From positions 1-35,204 of the forward strand of contig JABARV010000019.1 in the NCBI GenBank assembly GCA_019186965.1: a DNA stretch of 35,204 bases. Direction: 5' to 3'. Positions within the stretch are counted from its first letter, which is position 1, and every line of letters begins with the position of its first letter. Position numbers and translations under genes: made by a program. The stretch is from Turneriella sp. (GTDB lineage Bacteria > Spirochaetota > Leptospiria > Turneriellales > Turneriellaceae). The notes under the pieces are model-generated. The model saw only the letters and a program-made list of their open reading frames with translations, did no database searches and had not been told where the DNA came from. This document shows positions 21,507 through 31,238 of the stretch, piece by piece.

Positions 21507-21728
21507 ATGGAAAAGCATAGCACTCCCCCCTGTGGTGAACTTCTTAGTTGTGGAAAGGTGGCTCGCGCAGATATTTTTCCTTGTGGGCATATTGTTTTGG
21601 CGTTCGACACACTCAAAATTGCGTTTGCGCGTGAAGACTTCACCGACTTCGCGCATACTATTGCGCTGGCTCTATCCAATTTATCGTACCGTGACATCGA
21701 ACGTGCCCAATGGGGCCTTTTTATGTAG
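21507..21728 (+). CDS. Small Cys/His protein under a Fur box
   Basis: A 73-residue protein with C9, C15, C26 and H28 in its first third ('[20 protein letters not shown]'), then an amphipathic pattern '[18 protein letters not shown]'. The C-x-H plus F-x-x-x-x-I-x-F-x-R-x-x-F pattern recalls short proteins found beside iron-uptake genes in other phyla; this is memory, not a search result. AGAGGG lies seven bases before the ATG, and a near-consensus Fur box lies 41 bases before it. A GCTATG/CATAGC hairpin (21504-21509, 21516-21521) would bury the start codon. It could bind iron or another metal. Its last 48 bases overlap the chemoreceptor gene tail-to-tail. Confidence 0.6.
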
Positions 21729-23306
21729 CAACCGAAAAAAGCCCACAAGTTCATCCAGACGGCCTGCCTTTTCATTAAATTCGGTAGAGAGGTTTTTTAC
21801 CTGGGCGCTTGTTGAAACGACGCGCTCGGTTGTTTCGCTAATATGCGTTAAGTTTGTGTTTAGTGCGTGGCCTGTTGCTGTAGCTATATTTTCTGTAAGT
21901 TGCGAGTTCAGTTTACTCTGCTGGCTTATTTTTTCAAATTCTGTATTTACGTCTGTAACGGCGTTTTTACCACCTTCAGTCTTTTGGCGTGAGAGTCTGA
22001 TGGCATCATCTATTTTCTGAGAATTTCCCTTTGTTTGCTCGGAAAGCTTGGAGATTTCTGCAGCGACGACGGCAAAGCCCCTGCCAGCGTCTCCTGCGCG
22101 GGCGGCTTCGATGGTTGCATTGAGGGCAAGCAAATTTACTTGTTGCGCAATTTCGTTAATGAGTTCGACGCTTGCATTAATTTTAACGCTCTGTTGTTCT
22201 ATCTCGGTCATGCGTTCTGCAAGTTCTTTCACTGCGTGTGCGCCGTTTTGTACTGCGGCTGTCGATTCAGCACTGTTAGCATGCGCTTGCGTTACAGACT
22301 TCTTTACGTTCTCGATACGTGTCGAAATTTCTTTTATACTCGCTTCTTGCTCATACGCAGATTGGTTAAGTTCTTGAGATGTTTGCGCAAGCGTGATAGC
22401 GTCCGTTTTCAGTTGGCTGGCTTCGTTACGTATTTCGCTTACTACTAAATGCCACTTTTTTACCTGTTGATTAATTAAGTTTCCAATATTGGAGATGTCT
22501 TGGGCACCAAATTGTGGAACAGAGATGGATAAATCTCCTGTAGTGATCTCTTCTATTTTCTGCGTTGTTTCGACAAGCGCTGCCTTAAAAGTAGAGTGTG
22601 TTAAATACGCCGTATAAAGCGCGAAAGCAAAAATAACGCTTATGGCCCCAATACTATGCGCCACGGGATTTGCTGCAAAAATTTTCGCAGCAGTGGGCAC
22701 ATGCAACAAGTAAGAAAAGAAATAAACCGCAACAAGAGTTAATCCCAATGCGCCGCAAAGGAATCTACCTGAAAAGCTGAATGTCCTATATTCATTTTTT
22801 GAGAGCGAAATAGAGCTGAGGATTGGAAGCCGTTGGAGTGAAGCCATTGTCGCTTCGGTGAGAGTAACCGTCATGTACCATGAAAGCATTCCCCCTGCTG
22901 TGGGCAGCATAACTAAGTTTGCTACCATTATTGTAGGTACATCGTGGCGTGCCATGAAAATAAAATAAAGCGTGAGCATAGCAAAGTACCAGCGGCATAG
23001 GGAGAGAATACCCTCGAAAAAAGGGTAATGCAAAAGGCGTATTTTGAGTGCTTTTATTTTTTCTGGCGAAGTTTCGTTTTCTAAGGAGCGCAGAAGAGGG
23101 GTGAGCTTAATCCAGCGTACGAAGGCGTGGGAGAGAAAATCTTGCACCCCTGCGTACCCCATACAGAAAATGAAATCGATTATTTGTTCTTTTGAAAGAT
23201 TGCCGATAAGTAGAAAAAAATATCCAATAAAGGGTATAAAAACAGCAACTGTCAATGTTTGGTTGTGCAAAGTGAGTTGCCAGAAAAGTTTTTTGCTTTT
23301 TTCCAT
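21681..23306 (-). CDS. Methyl-accepting chemotaxis protein with six-helix membrane domain
   Basis: A 541-residue chemoreceptor. The N-terminal ~250 residues carry about six membrane helices (e.g. '[18 protein letters not shown]', '[13 protein letters not shown]', '[19 protein letters not shown]', '[18 protein letters not shown]') instead of one periplasmic sensor domain. A HAMP-like piece with '[13 protein letters not shown]' follows. The signalling hairpin tip is intact: '[38 protein letters not shown]'. It ends with '[11 protein letters not shown]' and a ~15-residue tail overlapping the Fur-box gene. The multi-helix sensor suggests it senses a membrane-borne or energy-related signal. It is divergent from the chemotaxis operon and likely feeds it. 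No clear ribosome-binding site. Confidence 0.9.
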
Positions 23307-23573: not shown

Positions 23574-24071
23574 ATGCAAGCAACAACAACAAGACAACAA
23601 AACCTTGCGGAGAAAATAAAGCTCAAAATGGCACACCTTTTTTCCATGAAAGAAAAACAGCGCCTTGTTTTAGGCGAGTTTTTGAATTCAGAGGTGATGA
23701 ACTTCAACGAACCTGCGCATGGTATCGAACGGTATAACCTCACCTACGGGCTTGATCTTTTAGGTTCGCTTTCAGGGCGCGTAATTTTAAATTTAGAAAG
23801 TAGTTTGGCGCATGCAGTCGCGGCGATTCTTTTTGCAAGCGAAGGGCCAATATCCGATGAAGACATGGATGTCTCGATGCAAGAGCTACTCAATATTTTT
23901 GGAGGCCACCTTGTAACGGCGTTTAATGAGTTAGGGCACGATTTAGACATTGCAACGCCAGAGCGCACCACGGAAGATTTTTTAAGCATGGAAGGTGTCC
24001 GCCGCATCTTGTTCCGCTTTTCGTGTTTGGGGCGCATTATACAATTTGTGGTCGTTCTTAAAAGCGAGTAG
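23574..24071 (+). CDS. cheX: CheX-type CheY-P phosphatase
   Basis: A 165-residue member of the CheC/CheX/FliY phosphatase family, which removes phosphate from CheY in organisms without CheZ. The catalytic E-x-x-N is E104-L-L-N107 in 'MQELLNIFGGHLVTAFNELG', followed by 'HDLDIATPE', the usual Pro-containing turn. 'LSGRVILNLESSLAHAVA' forms the conserved strand-helix before it. Only one ExxN is present, as in CheX and unlike CheC. The start follows AAGGAG by five bases. First gene of the chemotaxis operon; cheW follows nine bases after the stop. Confidence 0.88.
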   Translation: MQATTTRQQNLAEKIKLKMAHLFSMKEKQRLVLGEFLNSEVMNFNEPAHGIERYNLTYGLDLLGSLSGRVILNLESSLAHAVAAILFASEGPISDEDMDVSMQELLNIFGGHLVTAFNELGHDLDIATPERTTEDFLSMEGVRRILFRFSCLGRIIQFVVVLKSE

Positions 24072-24080
24072 GGGATAAAA

Positions 24081-24590
24081 ATGGAAGCTGCAATGGTACC
24101 TTATACATCTTTTATTGCAGCGCGCCGTTTAGGCACGGGCGTTGAGGTTGCCGACAGGGCAATGGACGACGGTGATGAAATATCCATCATTCTTTTTGAA
24201 ATTGGAAAAACACAGTTTGCCCTTCCCACGCTACGTGTTGTCGAAGTCGTGCGTGTTTCCGAAATTGTAAAAATTCCACGCTCGCCATCTTTTATCGAAG
24301 GGGTTATTGAAGTGCGCGACGAAGTTTTGCCCGTCATTGACATGCGCAAAAAATTGGGAGCGTTTGCAAAAAAATACGACGAGTGGACTATCATCATCGC
24401 GGAAGTGCAACACCTTAAAACAGGATTCATTGTAGATAGCGCAAAAAAAGTAATTACCCTAACAGGCGACGAACTCCAAAATTTGGGTTCTGCTGTAACC
24501 GGCGCAGAATCGCGTTACATCTACCGCACAATAAACCGCGACAAAACGCCGATTGTCATTTTAAATTTGGATACTCTTATGAACGAATAA
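24081..24590 (+). CDS. cheW: Chemotaxis coupling protein CheW
   Basis: A 169-residue CheW, the adaptor that links receptors to CheA in the array. The SH3-like core starts after ~30 extra N-terminal residues with 'ISIILFEIGKTQFALPTLRV' and includes 'IPRSPSFIEGVIEVRDEVLPVIDM', the classic strand pair and receptor-contact region. It is one of three CheW-type domains in the operon; the others are the P5 domain of CheA and the fused domain in the gene at 26308. AGGGGAT precedes the start. A 41-base gap separates it from cheA, which has its own GAGGAGGTG ribosome-binding site. Confidence 0.93.
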   Translation: MEAAMVPYTSFIAARRLGTGVEVADRAMDDGDEISIILFEIGKTQFALPTLRVVEVVRVSEIVKIPRSPSFIEGVIEVRDEVLPVIDMRKKLGAFAKKYDEWTIIIAEVQHLKTGFIVDSAKKVITLTGDELQNLGSAVTGAESRYIYRTINRDKTPIVILNLDTLMNE

Positions 24591-24631: not shown

Positions 24632-26311
24632 ATGACAGCTCCTGTTGTTAGTACAACTGCGCTCTGGGGAATTGCAATCCAAATTAGCGCAGAAGCAAAA
24701 TTCCCAAGCATCCTTATCCGCGAAATTTACCGGCGCTTGGCGTCGCAAGAAGACAAATGGGGATTTAGCATCGAATCAATTATGCCCGACATTTTTCCGG
24801 GAGAAAATTTATCCGAAGAGGCGATTGATAGCGCGTATAAATATTTAATCCGCATTACATACACAAAAAGTAAAGCAGAGCTCAAGAAAACTCTTGCGGC
24901 GTTGCTTAAGGGCGTGTCGGGAATTACCAAAATAGGTTTAGGCGAAATTTTACAAAAAAGTCCCGATGTAACTTCAAGCTCTGGTAGCGAGAGAAACGAA
25001 AGTGAAACAGGGATAGCAGAATTTTCCTCCGTACAGCGGCGGCAAGGTTCAATGCGCGTCGACCTTGCTAAAATTGAAGATTTAGTAAATTTAATAGGCG
25101 AACTTATTATAAACAAAAACCAAGTCGACGCTTTGTCGAATAGCATCGTCGGTTGGGTAGAGAAAGCACAACTGCAAAGCCAAGACAAATCGCAGCTTTC
25201 CGATTTTCAATCGGCGAAAAGCCAATTGAGTTATGTAACGGGTAAGCTGCGCGACTTGGCGCTGGGAATCCGCATGGTTCCCATTGGGCAGGCCCTAAAA
25301 AAATACCCCGCAGCGGTGCGCGAAATGGCGCGTAAGCAACAAAAAGAAATTCGCGTAATACTCGAAGGCGAAGAAACAGAACTGGATAAAGCAATCCTCG
25401 AAGAAATTGCCGATCCTCTTTTGCACATGATACGCAACTCGGTCGACCACGGCATAGAGTCGCCCAACGTACGCGAAAAAAATGGAAAGGCAAGGGAGGG
25501 AACTCTCCTTATACGCGCCGAACACGAAGGCGACCGTATTGCAATTTTTGTCGAAGACGACGGCGCAGGGCTTAACACGGGAAAAATTTTGCAAAAGGCT
25601 GTGCAAAAAGGAATCGTATCGGGAAAAAACAAAGACCTTCTTAGCGAACGCGAAATTTTCCATCTTATTTTTGCGCCGGGGTTTAGCACCGCCGACAAAG
25701 TATCGGAGCTTTCAGGGCGTGGCGTCGGTATGGATGTGGTCAAAAATAATATACAGCGTTTAAACGGCACCGTCGATGTCGAATCGGCAGAAGGCGTGGG
25801 TACGCGAATTACGTTAAAGTTGCCCCTTACGCTTTCTATTCTTGAGGGGCTTCTTTTAGAAGACGCCGAGCAAAGGTATGCAATCCCTCTTATCGCAATT
25901 GAAAAAGCATACCAAGTAGATCCTGTGGATTTAAAGCGCGTGGGTCGCTATTGGCTCATCGAAAAAAATGGCGTTACGCTTCCCGTTTTTCGTATTGCCG
26001 AACTTTTCCATAACGATACACAGATGGCGGGGACGTACTACCTCATCGAAGCGTCTGCCTCTGGCGGCAAGTTTGGCCTTATGGTACAGAAAATTCTTGG
26101 CCGCCAAGAAATTGTATTAAAACCTTTGGGCGACTACTTGGGAAAAGTAAAAGGAATTAGCGGAACAACAATTTTAGGGGATGGGCACGTCGCTCTTATT
26201 TTAGACACCAAGACCATCGCCGATTCAGTCGCGAACATTTTACACACGCCGCAAGCGGAAGGTGTGCTTAATAAAGAAGAAAAAGAAAATCTCCAAGAGG
26301 CGGATGTATGA
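24632..26311 (+). CDS. cheA: CheA histidine kinase lacking the P1 domain (P2-P3-P4-P5)
   Basis: A 559-residue kinase that begins directly with a P2-like response-regulator-binding domain (about 10-105; 'LWGIAIQISAEAKFPSILIR', ending 'LLKGVSGITKIGLGEIL'). It continues with a Ser/Glu linker, P3 dimerisation helices (142-215; 'VDLAKIEDLVNLIGELIINK'), the P4 ATPase (216-400) and P5 (~402-540). ATP-site motifs are intact: N-box 'HMIRNSVDHGIESP' (N269), 'DDGAGLN' (309-315) and 'GRGVGMDVV' (362-370). No phospho-accepting histidine domain is present. A strong ribosome-binding site fixes the start, so the loss is not a wrong start call; only 41 bases separate it from cheW. The missing P1 is supplied by the next gene, which overlaps it by 4 bp. 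It must phosphorylate that protein in trans. Confidence 0.93.
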   Translation: MTAPVVSTTALWGIAIQISAEAKFPSILIREIYRRLASQEDKWGFSIESIMPDIFPGENLSEEAIDSAYKYLIRITYTKSKAELKKTLAALLKGVSGITKIGLGEILQKSPDVTSSSGSERNESETGIAEFSSVQRRQGSMRVDLAKIEDLVNLIGELIINKNQVDALSNSIVGWVEKAQLQSQDKSQLSDFQSAKSQLSYVTGKLRDLALGIRMVPIGQALKKYPAAVREMARKQQKEIRVILEGEETELDKAILEEIADPLLHMIRNSVDHGIESPNVREKNGKAREGTLLIRAEHEGDRIAIFVEDDGAGLNTGKILQKAVQKGIVSGKNKDLLSEREIFHLIFAPGFSTADKVSELSGRGVGMDVVKNNIQRLNGTVDVESAEGVGTRITLKLPLTLSILEGLLLEDAEQRYAIPLIAIEKAYQVDPVDLKRVGRYWLIEKNGVTLPVFRIAELFHNDTQMAGTYYLIEASASGGKFGLMVQKILGRQEIVLKPLGDYLGKVKGISGTTILGDGHVALILDTKTIADSVANILHTPQAEGVLNKEEKENLQEADV

Positions 26312-27261
26312 GTGCACGCATAGACACAGCAACGCTAGACGCGGAATTGTTGAAAGAATTTTTCGTCGGTTGCGAAGAGCACCTTTCGGAAGCGGAAAAT
26401 GCGTTTATCGATTTAGAAAAACACCCGCAAGATATGGGGCTCATCAACGATATTTTTCGCCACTTCCATTCGGTAAAAGGCGACGCAGCGGCTTTGGGGT
26501 TTGACGCAGTGCGTATCCTTGCGCACGAACTTGAAACGATACTCGACAAGTTGCGCGAGCACACGCTTTCTGTAGCGCCAACGCTTTTAGATTTGCTCCT
26601 CGAAGGGCTCTCCCTCCTCCGGGCGCAAGTAAAGGCAATACAAGATAACGCAAACCTTCCCGACACTTCTGGAATTATTGTACGACTAAAAACGTACAGC
26701 CCCGAAGAAGAAGAAACCTACACAGGTACAGAAGAAAAAGAGGGTATGTACAATGTAAGTACAGCCGAGCTTACGCTTGCAGAAAGCGGCGCGGCGTTAC
26801 TCAACGAAGAAAAAACGTACACTGTTTTTCGTACCGGAAAATTGTGGTGCGCCCTTGATGTTACACAAAGCAATGAAATTATCGCGCCGCCGCACATAAC
26901 GCGTGTACCCAACGTCGAAAAATTTATCGAGGGGGTCATCAATCTGCGTGGCAGCATTGTTCCAATTATCCATTTAGGGCGCCGCTTGGGTATCGACGCC
27001 GATTTAGGCGCGGATGCAAAAATTTTACTTCTTATTATCGACGAAATGCGCTTGGGGCTTTTGGTGAGCGAAGTTGCGGGAGTGCGTACATGGACAAAAA
27101 GCCGCGTGCTTAAACCCGAAAGCGTTTCCTTTGACCTTAAAAAAACTTTTGTCACAGGTGTAGTAACCGAGATGAGCCGCATCGTGTTACTTTTAAACGT
27201 CCTTGAAATTATTCGCCGCAATGGCAATTTAAAACAACAAAATAAGCAGGGGGCTTTATGA
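26308..27261 (+). CDS. CheA P1 (Hpt) domain fused to a CheW domain
   Basis: A 317-residue protein with an Hpt domain at 10-120 and a CheW/P5-like domain at about 155-305, joined by an acidic linker ('[17 protein letters not shown]'). The Hpt motif '[16 protein letters not shown]' (50-65) contains the phosphorylatable H54 and K57-G58. The CheW part includes '[18 protein letters not shown]' and '[18 protein letters not shown]'. There are no P3 or P4 domains, so it cannot phosphorylate itself. It would receive phosphate from the CheA encoded just upstream and pass it to CheY or CheB, while its CheW domain places it inside the receptor array. The Rhodobacter sphaeroides CheA3/CheA4 pair (P1-P5 plus a P1-less kinase) is the nearest known logic. 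Its stop overlaps the receptor's ATG (ATGA). Confidence 0.9.
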
Positions 27262-28877
27262 AACTGGGAATTCGTGGAAAACTAACATTAGGGTTTAGCA
27301 TCGTTACGGTGATGCTGCTTATAGTCGGGTTTTTAGGGTTAAGGGCGCTAACAAAATCAAATGACGCTCTGGTTGAAGTTTCTGAAAAAACGATGAAAAA
27401 AGTAACATTGTTAGGTGAAGCTCGTGCTGCCTATTTAAATATTGTACGGGCGGAGAAAAATATTATACTTGAGAATCTACGTTCACGGCAACAAGAACAA
27501 ATCAAAACGGCTAAAGAACTTCGTGCACGTTTTGTGCAGCGTTTGGAAACAGTCATTCCTATTTTAATCGTTGAAAAAAGTAAAGAGCAATTACAACAAG
27601 CATTACAAATTGCTAAGGAACACGAAACTATTTTTAACCAGATTACCCTTTTAAGTGCCGCAGGTGCTAAGGCGCAAGCTATTGAATTGAGTGATCATAA
27701 AGCACGAGAAAATGTTACAAATATCATTGCTTTGATTGAAGAGGTCATCGCAACGCAAAATAGGCTTTCAGAGGCTAGCCGTATTGAAAATGGTAAATCG
27801 TATAGTATCACCCTAATCACGAATATCGTCATCATTGTCATTGCGGTTGCGCTTGCGTTTGGTTTTGCCTTCTTTATTATCCGCAACGTCCTCAACGGCA
27901 TGAATAACGCGCTCAATTCGGTGGCGACAGTGGCGGCGGGCACCGAGCAGGTGTCGAGCGCAGCGCAGCAAATATCGCAGGGCGCATCGGAGCAGTCGGC
28001 GGCGATTGAGCAAATTTCTTCGTCGCTCGAAGAGATGCTCGCGACGATTAAACAAAATAGTGATAGCGCAAACCAAACCGAAAAAATTGCTCTCAAAGCC
28101 GCCGATAGCGCCCGTGAAGGCGGTACCGCCGTTACGCAAGCGGTGAAAGCGATGGGCGACATCGCCGAGCGCATCGGCATCATCCAAGAAATTGCAGGCC
28201 AAACGAGCCTTTTGGCGCTTAACGCGTCGATTGAAGCGGCGCGCGCGGGCAACCACGGTAAAGGCTTTGCCGTCGTCGCGGCAGAGGTGCAAAAGCTCGC
28301 CGAAAAAAGCCAAGCGGCAGCGGCGGAAATCAGCACACTTTCCGAGTCGAGCGTTTCTGTTGCTAAAACAGCGGGCGATTTGATTACAAAACTCATCCCC
28401 GATATTCAAAAAACGGCCGAGCTCGTTTCTGAAATCAATTCGGCGAGCGCAGAGCAAACCAACGGCGCGAACCAAATTTCGTCGGCGGTGGAACAGTTCG
28501 GTTCGGTGATTCAAGAAAACGCTTCGTCGTCGGAAGAATTGGCGTCGACCTCTGAGGAACTCACCGCGCAGGCCGATCATTTGCGCGACATCGTCACTGA
28601 GATTATTACAGGAAAAGTTGACCAAACACACGGAAACGAAGAAAACGGGACACGGAGTAAAAAAGTTCAGGATACGAAAAAAAGTCTTCGTTCGTTGAGC
28701 CATGTTTTAAACAGCGAAAAACAGGCCCTAAATAAATCAAGTTTGCGAACACCCAAACATATAACTAATGGAGTTTCGGCACAACCAAAAATGGATAACC
28801 ATAAAGATGGTTTTGAATACGAAATGTCGAACGCAAAAGACGATACCGATCATGAGTTTCAAAGGATAGGTAAATAA
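27258..28877 (+). CDS. Methyl-accepting chemotaxis protein without a HAMP domain
   Basis: A 539-residue receptor: TM1 (about 10-28), a helical periplasmic sensor resembling the four-helix-bundle MCP type (~30-182), TM2 (~184-207) and a cytoplasmic signalling hairpin with tip '[38 protein letters not shown]'. TM2 runs almost straight into '[19 protein letters not shown]', leaving no room for HAMP. From ~27890 to ~28610 the DNA is distinctly GC-richer than on either side, starting exactly after TM2. The C-terminal ~80 residues are a polar AT-rich tail with no NWETF-type CheR-binding pentapeptide. It is inside the operon, so it is probably the principal or cognate receptor for this array. Confidence 0.92.
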
Positions 28878-28878
28878 A

Positions 28879-29733
28879 ATGGTAGGGCTTGCTTTTAAAA
28901 CACCATCGCTTTCAGATGCAGTGTGGGCTAAACTTTCTCCTGTTATTGAAAGCGAGGTAGGCATCCAAATGCCTATTGATAAAAAGGCATTACTGCAAAA
29001 TCGATTACTCAAAAGATTACGTATTTTAGGATTAGAAACCTTTGAAGAATACTGCGACTATCTTTTTAGTAAAGATGGACAAGAACATGAGATGACAGCG
29101 TTTCTTAACGAGATTACTACAAACAAAACCTATTTTTTTAGGGAGTTTCGCCATTTTGAAGTTTTGAACGATAGAATTATTCCAGAATTTCTTGCCACAC
29201 AAAAAAATACAATAAAGCCGTTTCGTATTTGGAGCGCAGCGGCTTCAACCGGCGAAGAGGTCTACTCGATAGCTTGTATCATTGAAGAGTATATGCGTAC
29301 GGAGAATGTGGTAATCCCGTACGAGATTTTAGGTTCGGATCTTTCAACGCGAGTACTCTGGCATGCGTACGACGCGATTTATGACGAAGAACAAGTACGT
29401 ATGATTTCCCCCGATTTGAAACGGCGGTATTTTCTAGAGAGGAAAAATTCAACAATCCCAGAACTCCGTGTTTCTCCCGAAGTGCGTGCACATGTAAAAT
29501 TTTGTAAAATTAATTTAATGAGTGAAAAGTATCCACACATTGAAAAGTTTGATGTGGTGTTTTGCCGTAACGTACTTATCTATTTCTCACGTCCCGATAT
29601 CCATAAAATTATGAAACGGATGCTTGAACATTTAAAAGACGGGGGATACCTAATTACAGGCCATGCGGATGCAATTCCTGTACCAGAGTTGAAGCTTAAG
29701 CGTATAGAACCCAGTATTTACGCCAAAGTGTAG
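28879..29733 (+). CDS. cheR: Chemoreceptor methyltransferase CheR
   Basis: A 284-residue SAM-dependent methyltransferase that methylates receptor glutamates. The N-terminal helical domain (~10-85) ends in 'FLNEITTNKTYFFREFRHFE'. The SAM-binding region has 'IWSAAASTGEEVYSIACI', 'ILGSDLSTRVL' and 'FDVVFCRNVLIYFSRPDI', then 'HLKDGGYLITGHADAIP'. The beta-subdomain used by some CheRs to grip a receptor pentapeptide looks reduced, consistent with the receptor lacking that pentapeptide. It starts one base after the receptor stop and ends one base before cheB. Confidence 0.94.
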   Translation: MVGLAFKTPSLSDAVWAKLSPVIESEVGIQMPIDKKALLQNRLLKRLRILGLETFEEYCDYLFSKDGQEHEMTAFLNEITTNKTYFFREFRHFEVLNDRIIPEFLATQKNTIKPFRIWSAAASTGEEVYSIACIIEEYMRTENVVIPYEILGSDLSTRVLWHAYDAIYDEEQVRMISPDLKRRYFLERKNSTIPELRVSPEVRAHVKFCKINLMSEKYPHIEKFDVVFCRNVLIYFSRPDIHKIMKRMLEHLKDGGYLITGHADAIPVPELKLKRIEPSIYAKV

Positions 29734-29734
29734 T

Positions 29735-30820
29735 ATGGATAAAAAGCGTATCACGGTAATGGTTGTAGACGACTCTGCGCTAATACGCAGTGCTCTTAAA
29801 AAAATTATTTCTGAAGATGCGGACTTAGAGGTAATAGGAGCGTTTAGCGATCCTTTTTTAGCGGCAAATGCGTTAAAAACACAATTACCCAGCGTAATGA
29901 TTTTAGATGTCGAGATGCCGGGAATGGACGGCCTGACTTTTTTAAATAAAATAATGACGCAGCGGCCCATCCCAATTATTATTTGTTCAAGCCTTGTAAG
30001 CGAAGGCTCTGACACGCTTGCAAAAGCGTTGAGCTTTGGCGCCGTCGAAGTTATACAAAAGCCTAAAATTGGAACACAAAAGTTTTTTGAAGAATCTAAA
30101 ATTCGAATTACCGACGCTATTAAGGCAGCGTCGCAAGCAAAGTTATCTAACCTAAAATATATACGCAAATCGAGCGAACGGTTTGTTCCCCCACCACGCC
30201 TAAGCGCAGATGCGGTGCTTCCAGTTTCTTCACACATACTTAAAGAAACAACAGAAAAAATTATTGCCGTGGGAGCTTCGACAGGCGGCACAGAGGCGCT
30301 CCGCATTTTTATCGAGCAGCTACCTATAGATGTCCCTGGGGTTGTGGTTGTGCAGCACATGCCCGAAAAATTCACACGTTCTTTCGCGGATCGTTTAAAC
30401 GAACTTAGCGCGGTTACAGTAAAAGAAGCAGAATCCAACGATACCGTGCTTCGTGGCCAAGTGCTGATTGCCCCCGGAAACAAGCATACTATCCTTAAAC
30501 GCAGTGGGCACCGCTATTACGTCGACGTTATTGATGGAGATTTGGTAAATCGCCACCGCCCTTCGGTGGATGTACTTTTCCGTTCGGTGGCAAACAGTGC
30601 GGGCAAAAACGCCGTGGGCGTAATTATGACGGGCATGGGAGACGACGGCGCACGAGGGCTTCTCGAAATGAAAAAAAATGGCGCGTACACAATTGCACAA
30701 GACGAAGAAAGCTGCGTGGTGTACGGCATGCCCAAGGAAGCGGTTAAAATGGGGGCGGTCGATAAAATACTTCCTTTAGAGAATATCGCAAACGAGGTAT
30801 TGAAAAAAACAGCGGCTTAG
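29735..30820 (+). CDS. cheB: Chemoreceptor methylesterase/response regulator CheB
   Basis: A 361-residue CheB with an N-terminal receiver (1-~120; D12, D13, phospho-acceptor D58 in 'MILDVEMPGMDGL', K109) and a C-terminal methylesterase (~173-358). The triad is Ser182 in 'GASTGG', His208 in 'VVQHMP' and Asp304 in 'MGDDGA'. It removes receptor methyl esters or deamidates glutamines when phosphorylated by the kinase system. Its phosphodonor here should be H54 of the P1-CheW protein rather than CheA itself. Translationally linked to cheR; a 40-base gap with a fresh ribosome-binding site precedes cheY. Confidence 0.95.
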   Translation: MDKKRITVMVVDDSALIRSALKKIISEDADLEVIGAFSDPFLAANALKTQLPSVMILDVEMPGMDGLTFLNKIMTQRPIPIIICSSLVSEGSDTLAKALSFGAVEVIQKPKIGTQKFFEESKIRITDAIKAASQAKLSNLKYIRKSSERFVPPPRLSADAVLPVSSHILKETTEKIIAVGASTGGTEALRIFIEQLPIDVPGVVVVQHMPEKFTRSFADRLNELSAVTVKEAESNDTVLRGQVLIAPGNKHTILKRSGHRYYVDVIDGDLVNRHRPSVDVLFRSVANSAGKNAVGVIMTGMGDDGARGLLEMKKNGAYTIAQDEESCVVYGMPKEAVKMGAVDKILPLENIANEVLKKTAA

Positions 30821-30860
30821 TATTATTTAGAAATATAAGTTAAATATTTTGGAGGACAAA

Positions 30861-31238
30861 ATGGAAACGAAGAAAAGAGCGATGATTGTGGATGATTCTC
30901 GGTTAACACAAAAACAATTGGCGCAAATACTAACAGATTGCGGGATTGACGTTACCGATATTGCATCGAATGGACTCGAAGCGGTAGACAAAGTGAAAGC
31001 GAAGCAGGGTGCGTTCGATATAATAACCCTCGACATTACTATGCCGCAACTCGACGGGGTATCTGCGCTTAAACAAATTATGGCAATAGATTCTAACGCA
31101 TGCGTACTCATGGTGAGCGCAATTGGCAAAGAAAACGTGATTAAAGCTTGCATGGCACAGGGCGCGCGCAATTTTATTGTAAAGCCTTTCCACGCTGAAA
31201 AAGTTAAAGAAATTGTCCGTGCTACTGTAGCAGCGTAA
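30861..31238 (+). CDS. cheY: Chemotaxis response regulator CheY
   Basis: A 126-residue single receiver domain. Acidic pair D11-D12 ('IVDDSR'), phospho-acceptor D58 in 'ITLDITMPQLDG', the switch Ser in 'VSAIGKENV' (Ser instead of Thr) and Lys in 'FIVKPFH' are all in place. CheY-P would bind the flagellar switch. The start is the ATG after GGAGGA; an upstream in-frame TTG (30849) lies within this ribosome-binding sequence. Last gene of the operon; its phosphatase CheX is encoded first. Confidence 0.95.
   Translation: METKKRAMIVDDSRLTQKQLAQILTDCGIDVTDIASNGLEAVDKVKAKQGAFDIITLDITMPQLDGVSALKQIMAIDSNACVLMVSAIGKENVIKACMAQGARNFIVKPFHAEKVKEIVRATVAA

Follow-up and report, generated by a model that had tools for sequence, protein, structure and literature searches.

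The chemotaxis operon described here encodes its CheA in two pieces, a kinase that lacks the P1 (Hpt) domain and a second protein in which P1 is fused to a CheW domain. It lies in a stretch of 35,204 nucleotides from Turneriella sp. (Spirochaetota), hereafter the window. We document the division of the domains, the integrity of the motifs, the CheW ancestry of the adaptor half, the linkage of both genes in an operon, and their co-inheritance. We think it probable that the two proteins form a bipartite CheA built into the chemoreceptor array, in which the P1-CheW protein would dock at a CheW position and be phosphorylated in trans on H54. Since the same two genes sit together in a few other spirochetes and in a group of Firmicutes, the pair is a genuine, though uncommon, form of the split-kinase design known from Rhodobacter sphaeroides.

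Pfam matches give the order of the genes on the forward strand as CheX, CheW, P1-less kinase, P1-CheW, membrane chemoreceptor (MCP), CheR, CheB, and CheY (Table 1). The coordinates and reading frames given for the kinase and P1-CheW genes in the initial annotation of this DNA were exact. The four-base overlap between them is also present in L052 and L055, and a CheX-like gene is kept near the pair in G004, G015, G017, and G059. Just upstream of the operon, on the minus strand (21681-23306), lies a gene for a second protein with an MCP signaling domain.

Table 1. Features of the che operon in the window and of the domains of the split CheA.
Feature	Position	Strand	Evidence
Gene for a CheX-like phosphatase, at the start of the operon	23574..24071	+	Pfam CheX 1.1e-7
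Plain CheW adaptor	24081..24590	+	Pfam CheW 1.8e-28
P1-less CheA kinase (P2-like, P3, P4, P5), 559 aa	24632..26311	+	Pfam; homologs in L052-L056, L167
P2-like N-terminal domain, aa 10-106, beta-alpha-beta-beta-alpha-beta	24659..24949	+	AF2 model, Foldseek
P3 dimerization domain (H-kinase_dim)	25049..25258	+	Pfam 2.4e-11
P4 ATPase domain, N, G1, G2 boxes intact	25409..25831	+	Pfam 5e-17
Kinase P5 domain	25847..26227	+	Pfam CheW 6.8e-18; tree places it with CheA P5
ATGA overlap, kinase stop/P1-CheW start	26308..26311	+	Sequence
P1-CheW fusion protein, 317 aa	26308..27261	+	Pfam, AF2 model
P1/Hpt domain, aa 13-106	26344..26625	+	Pfam Hpt 6.7e-15; nearest solved chains CheA P1 2ld6, 1tqg
H54 codon, predicted phospho-acceptor	26467..26469	+	Conservation
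Disordered linker, aa 133-166 (~35 residues), without P3/P4 remnant	26704..26805	+	pLDDT <50; no Pfam match
CheW domain, scaffold lineage, aa 171-303, GVINLRG motif	26818..27216	+	Pfam 2e-25; tree 100/100
Membrane chemoreceptor, 4HB_MCP sensor + MCP signaling domain	27258..28877	+	Pfam
CheR methyltransferase	28879..29733	+	Pfam 1.4e-54
CheB methylesterase with receiver domain	29735..30820	+	Pfam 3.5e-68 and 3.3e-20
CheY-like single receiver	30849..31238	+	Pfam Response_reg 3.4e-24

The Pfam domains of the kinase are H-kinase_dim (residues 140-209), HATPase_c (260-400), and CheW/P5 (406-532), and no Hpt was matched in its 559 residues. The N, G1, and G2 boxes of P4 are kept in all ten homologs of the alignment. 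The 317-residue partner has an Hpt (13-106, 6.7e-15) and a CheW domain (171-303, 2e-25), with no Pfam match to a kinase core. The domain search thus bears out the initial annotation, which had described a kinase with P3, P4, and P5 and without Hpt, followed by a gene with an Hpt (H54) and a CheW domain and without kinase core. That the kinase starts at P2, as was also claimed, is supported by fold and position. The N-terminal 110 residues or so matched no Pfam family, and a profile search of the N terminus against PDB sequences gave no meaningful match. AF2, supplied with seven homologs, predicts for residues 1-113 a beta-alpha-beta-beta-alpha-beta fold of modest confidence (mean pLDDT 65.5), for which Foldseek places the P2 domain of Thermotoga maritima CheA (1u0s) fourth (E=1.2e-4), among other ferredoxin-like folds. 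The domain is conserved in the seven spirochetes known to carry the pair and can be aligned with its counterpart in the Bacillota kinases. P2 is a plausible identity rather than a proven one, because of the missing Pfam match, the modest model, and the other ferredoxin-like matches around 1u0s. A P1 domain hidden in this region, which the initial annotation had named as evidence against its reading, was rejected: no Hpt profile matched and the model is beta-alpha-beta-beta-alpha-beta rather than a helical bundle.

In the AF2 model of the P1-CheW protein, the Hpt is such a bundle, with helices at pLDDT of about 90 and H54 on the second one, and the CheW half is a beta barrel. H54, K57, and G58 are invariant in the seven spirochete proteins and present in the Bacillota ones too. 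The solved sequences nearest to the C-terminal half are CheW proteins, not CheA. All homologs retain the positions E38 and G57 of Escherichia coli CheW, and all but L055 retain R62; we take G57 and R62 to be relevant to the binding of receptors or of the kinase P5 in the rings. The residues at these two positions suggest that P1-CheW would bind both receptors and kinase P5 in rings.

The ancestry of this half is informative about the origin of the protein. In a tree of CheW-fold domains, CheA P5 and scaffold CheW are split at 100/100, and every P1-CheW domain, Bacillota included, falls on the scaffold CheW side. The tree was built without R. sphaeroides CheA3, for which the P5 label is taken from papers. 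The spirochete P1-CheW domains group with two Bacillota CheW proteins (95/94). Judged by its sequence, the P1 carrier is an adaptor to which P1 was attached and not a hollowed-out CheA, because its C-terminal domain belongs to scaffold CheW. A CheA whose middle was deleted is disfavored on the same ground, and the initial annotation gains support for its view of the P1 carrier as an adaptor. An AU test of a single fusion origin for spirochetes and Bacillota gave a p-AU of 0.29, which neither rejects nor establishes it, and a tree of the Hpt domain alone had no resolution; the fusion may have arisen twice.

The initial annotation had pointed to spirochete genomes as the place to look for the pair. 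We found full-length P1-CheW in 7 of 393 Spirochaetota genomes (the window, G004, G015, G017, G026, G059, and G178), set apart by a wide gap in the search, with the carriers at E values of 1e-85 or better and all else at 1e-32 or worse. The profile of the P1-less kinase reaches E <1e-130 in exactly the same seven genomes. The two proteins are therefore one-to-one in these genomes and co-occur in no other genome of the Spirochaetota sample, an association far beyond chance. The carriers span five families, and those with names are metagenome assemblies. The distribution is patchy: in the window's genus six other genomes were covered, and five of them, some incomplete, are without the pair. Identity among homologs is 38-60 percent for the kinase and 28-52 percent for P1-CheW. 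Their pairwise divergences are correlated over the seven spirochetes (r 0.96, to which shared divergence time alone contributes), and their trees show nearly identical branching. In the kinase tree, G015 and G017, which belong to the window's order, cluster with more distant genomes and not with the window, at weak support (81/73), which hints at transfer. The two genes are not adjacent in G178. In the G015 and G017 operons, the plain CheW (L053:6328-7359, L054:5938-6882) is extended at its N terminus by about 130-170 residues, and the extension matched no Pfam family in L053.

Draft assemblies often yield split genes as artifacts, and the pair could in principle be a degenerate or misassembled ordinary CheA that does not work. 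This reading, to which we give next to no weight, is already refuted by conservation: both frames are open, catalytic residues are kept across homologs, and the same split occurs in independent assemblies and in two phyla. The gene order speaks against it as well, with P1 downstream of the kinase and equipped with its own CheW domain. A sequencing artifact or frameshift was rejected on the same two grounds, gene order and conservation.

The window's genome has other potential phosphodonors. Two complete CheAs are encoded elsewhere, one of 663 aa on contig 5, accompanied by an MCP, a CheW, and a receiver of its own, and the other, of 870 aa, on contig 1, with no che neighbors in the stretch read. 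In our tree both belong to P3-P4 lineages distant from the split kinase. There is also a stand-alone Hpt protein of 114 aa (contig 5, ~25050-25394; L168:5050-5394), a possible alternative phosphate carrier. These proteins, together with a Bacillota genome (G558) that retains P1-CheW without the split kinase, would suit a different arrangement, in which P1-CheW takes phosphate from the complete CheAs, directly or via CheY, and acts as a sink or cross-talk node, and the split kinase uses another P1, for instance through mixed dimers or the stand-alone Hpt. We find this improbable. It sits poorly with the way in which kinase and P1-CheW strictly co-occur and diverge together in seven spirochetes, and with the separate MCP, CheW, and receiver of one of the complete CheAs; moreover, mixed dimers of the split kinase with a complete CheA are unlikely because the P3-P4 lineages are distant. 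The initial annotation had stated that a complete CheA serving this array would refute its case. This objection holds by half: two complete CheAs do exist, but they are of other lineages, and neither they nor the stand-alone Hpt refute the pairing of the split kinase with P1-CheW.

The pair extends to a second phylum. Among 348 genomes sampled from Bacillota, five have full-length P1-CheW, and in four of these (L187-L190) one run of genes encodes an MCP, CheW, CheB, the P1-less kinase, a HEAT-repeat protein, CheR, a receiver, P1-CheW, an MCP-like protein, and CheY. The spirochete G178 has kinase, HEAT, CheR, receiver, P1-CheW, and receiver, so that the order from the kinase to P1-CheW is common to both. 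The HEAT-repeat gene between split kinase and cheR lies at L167:1552-2229 in G178 and at L187:5899-7431 in a Bacillota genome. A P3-P4 tree that also includes the complete CheAs of both phyla unites the split kinases in a single clade (98/90; 96 percent of bootstrap trees). A previous tree, differently sampled and containing long branches, had placed spirochete and Bacillota kinases near each other without support. The bipartite layout of CheA exists beyond the Rhodobacter case and was shared between Spirochaetota and Bacillota. The fifth Bacillota carrier, G558, still has P1-CheW, but about 7 kb that started within the MCP and reached to the receiver gene have been replaced. The deletion (L191:5879-9766) removed the 3' end of the MCP, CheW, CheB, the split kinase, HEAT, CheR, and the receiver, and the stretch now there encodes a protein that we take to resemble an IS110-type transposase. 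Because P1-CheW was kept after the split kinase was deleted, the pair is not indispensable in this case. The carriers have a GC content of 33 to 35 percent and are likely Caldicellulosiruptor, judging from this low value and from Hamer et al. 2010 (PMC2829493).

Searches elsewhere were less productive. No P1-CheW turned up in phylum samples centered on a deltaproteobacterial and on a pseudomonadotal genome, which shows little since these searches had no positive control; a short-linker P1..P5 protein has been reported in Desulfuromonas acetoxidans (Hamer et al., PMC2829493). A scan of genome contigs had no full-length relative outside Spirochaetota among its best 80 matches, and a plasmid search gave single-domain matches only. 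L152 resembled a CheW-Hpt protein but appears to be the end part of a P3-P4-P5-Hpt CheA whose frame is broken. Permuted CheAs, with the Hpt C-terminal of P3-P4-P5, form a well-supported clade in Deltaproteobacteria and Planctomycetota assemblies (L108, L119, L121-L123, L128, L129, L135, L143, L145, L146, L148, L155, L161, and L166).

How could such a kinase work? We propose that the P1-less kinase dimerizes via P3 and docks via P5, and that next to it P1-CheW would use its CheW domain to occupy a CheW position, on the kinase P5 and/or the receptor tips. The flexible linker of some 35 residues would tether P1 within reach of P4, which would phosphorylate H54 in trans; by analogy with CheA4 acting on CheA3, this is the most likely source of its phosphate. 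From phospho-P1 the phosphate could then move on to CheY and CheB of the operon, which the P2-like domain on the kinase would recruit, and CheX would strip it from CheY. We infer the transphosphorylation, the lattice position, and the docking to P2. With P1 on an adaptor that could be exchanged for the plain CheW of the same operon, P1 supply would depend on adaptor occupancy and not on the number of kinases. Since that CheW is encoded alongside, CheW and P1-CheW would compete for ring positions. This step, and with it a tuning of the output by their ratio, goes back to the initial annotation and would fit the CheW ancestry of the carrier.

Read most simply, the bipartite kinase has in P1-CheW nothing more than a tethered substrate: the CheW domain would be a handle for docking to P5, and the whole the functional equivalent of an ordinary CheA, without adaptor role or ratio tuning. 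The ATGA coupling would then yield near 1:1 synthesis, and the plain CheW of the operon is available for the scaffold role. We regard this as unlikely, for a scaffold-lineage CheW domain with the NLRG receptor-side motif is expected to bind receptors too, and 1:1 synthesis is not conserved, because the genes are non-adjacent in G178 and in Bacillota. We favor a P1-CheW that is an array adaptor as well as a substrate. More tentatively, and as a real possibility, the systems of both phyla may form one class in which P1 travels on an exchangeable adaptor, output is gated by the presence of CheW or P1-CheW at ring positions, and the carrier originated by fusion of P1 and CheW, in contrast to the decay of a duplicated CheA that has been proposed for CheA3/CheA4. 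In the canonical CheA, P1 and P4 are fixed one to one on one chain, so substrate supply and lattice occupancy are inseparable; a natural P1-adaptor fusion would let them vary independently. This makes it a testable system for the site of P1 in the array, the reach of a P1 at a CheW site to the P4 of a neighboring core unit, and the effect of adaptor composition on gain.

Finally, the pair can be set against known systems. The canonical CheA has Hpt and kinase core on one chain, whereas the window's kinase is without Hpt and has its P3-P4-P5 core and ATP boxes intact; as one operon encodes both this P1-less core and a separate P1 protein, its layout is that of a bipartite CheA. Its closest analog is Rhodobacter (Cereibacter) sphaeroides CheA3/CheA4, also a P1-less kinase and a P1 carrier ending in a CheW-fold domain in one che operon (PMC3591291, PMC3964821, PMC10782961). 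There, CheA4 phosphorylates the P1 of CheA3 and both localize to the array (PMC3591291, PMC3964821), the same trans-phosphorylation from P4 to P1 within one array that we propose here, and the analogy with its division of P1 and P4 made in the initial annotation is supported. A passage in PMC10782961 cites work in which a P1 freed from CheA is still functional, and Hpt genes occur in cheA operons (PMC10782961). The differences are nonetheless considerable. CheA3 has a middle of ~794 aa, with degenerate CheA domains between the Hpt and the C-terminal domain (PMC10782961) and phosphatase activity on CheY6, whereas P1-CheW has its disordered linker without any domain, and the window's operon has a separate CheX. 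The C-terminal domain of CheA3 is described as P5; that of P1-CheW falls on the CheW side of the P5/CheW split (100/100) and has the NLRG motif, which places it in the CheW scaffold family. CheA4 has no P2, whereas the window's kinase keeps a predicted P2-like ferredoxin fold of modest model confidence. Unlike the CheA3/CheA4 system, the window's operon includes a membrane receptor.

The novelty suggested at the outset holds in part. No spirochete with this arrangement was found in the literature searched. However, a short-linker P1..CheW-fold architecture was noted in 2010 in Caldicellulosiruptor, Anaerocellum, and Desulfuromonas (Hamer et al., PMC2829493), and for CheA3/CheA4 it was proposed earlier that the P1 carrier intercalates next to the kinase in the rings of the array (PMC3964821). 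The short-linker P1..P5 protein and CheA4-like kinase of Caldicellulosiruptor saccharolyticus/Anaerocellum, described as domain architecture only (PMC2829493), are very probably the same system as L187-L190, whose operons, unlike that of the window, include additional MCP-like proteins and a HEAT-repeat gene. What is new are the spirochete members, the scaffold-CheW ancestry that the tree assigns to the carrier, the P2-like domain predicted on the kinase, the synteny with Bacillota, and the single kinase clade across phyla. Synechocystis PilL-N/PilL-C (Hik36/Hik43; PMC7656254) likewise divides a CheA between an Hpt protein and a P3-P4-P5 kinase, which interact with each other, but no CheW domain is reported on the Hpt part, the genes are far apart, and the system is that of the type IV pilus (PMC7656254). 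As an array adaptor with an extra signaling domain, P1-CheW resembles CheV (CheW plus receiver) and the CheW-CheR-like protein of Treponema (PMC7666581), the latter also in spirochetes. It differs from both in its cargo, a phospho-donor Hpt that the P1-less kinase would need for any output.
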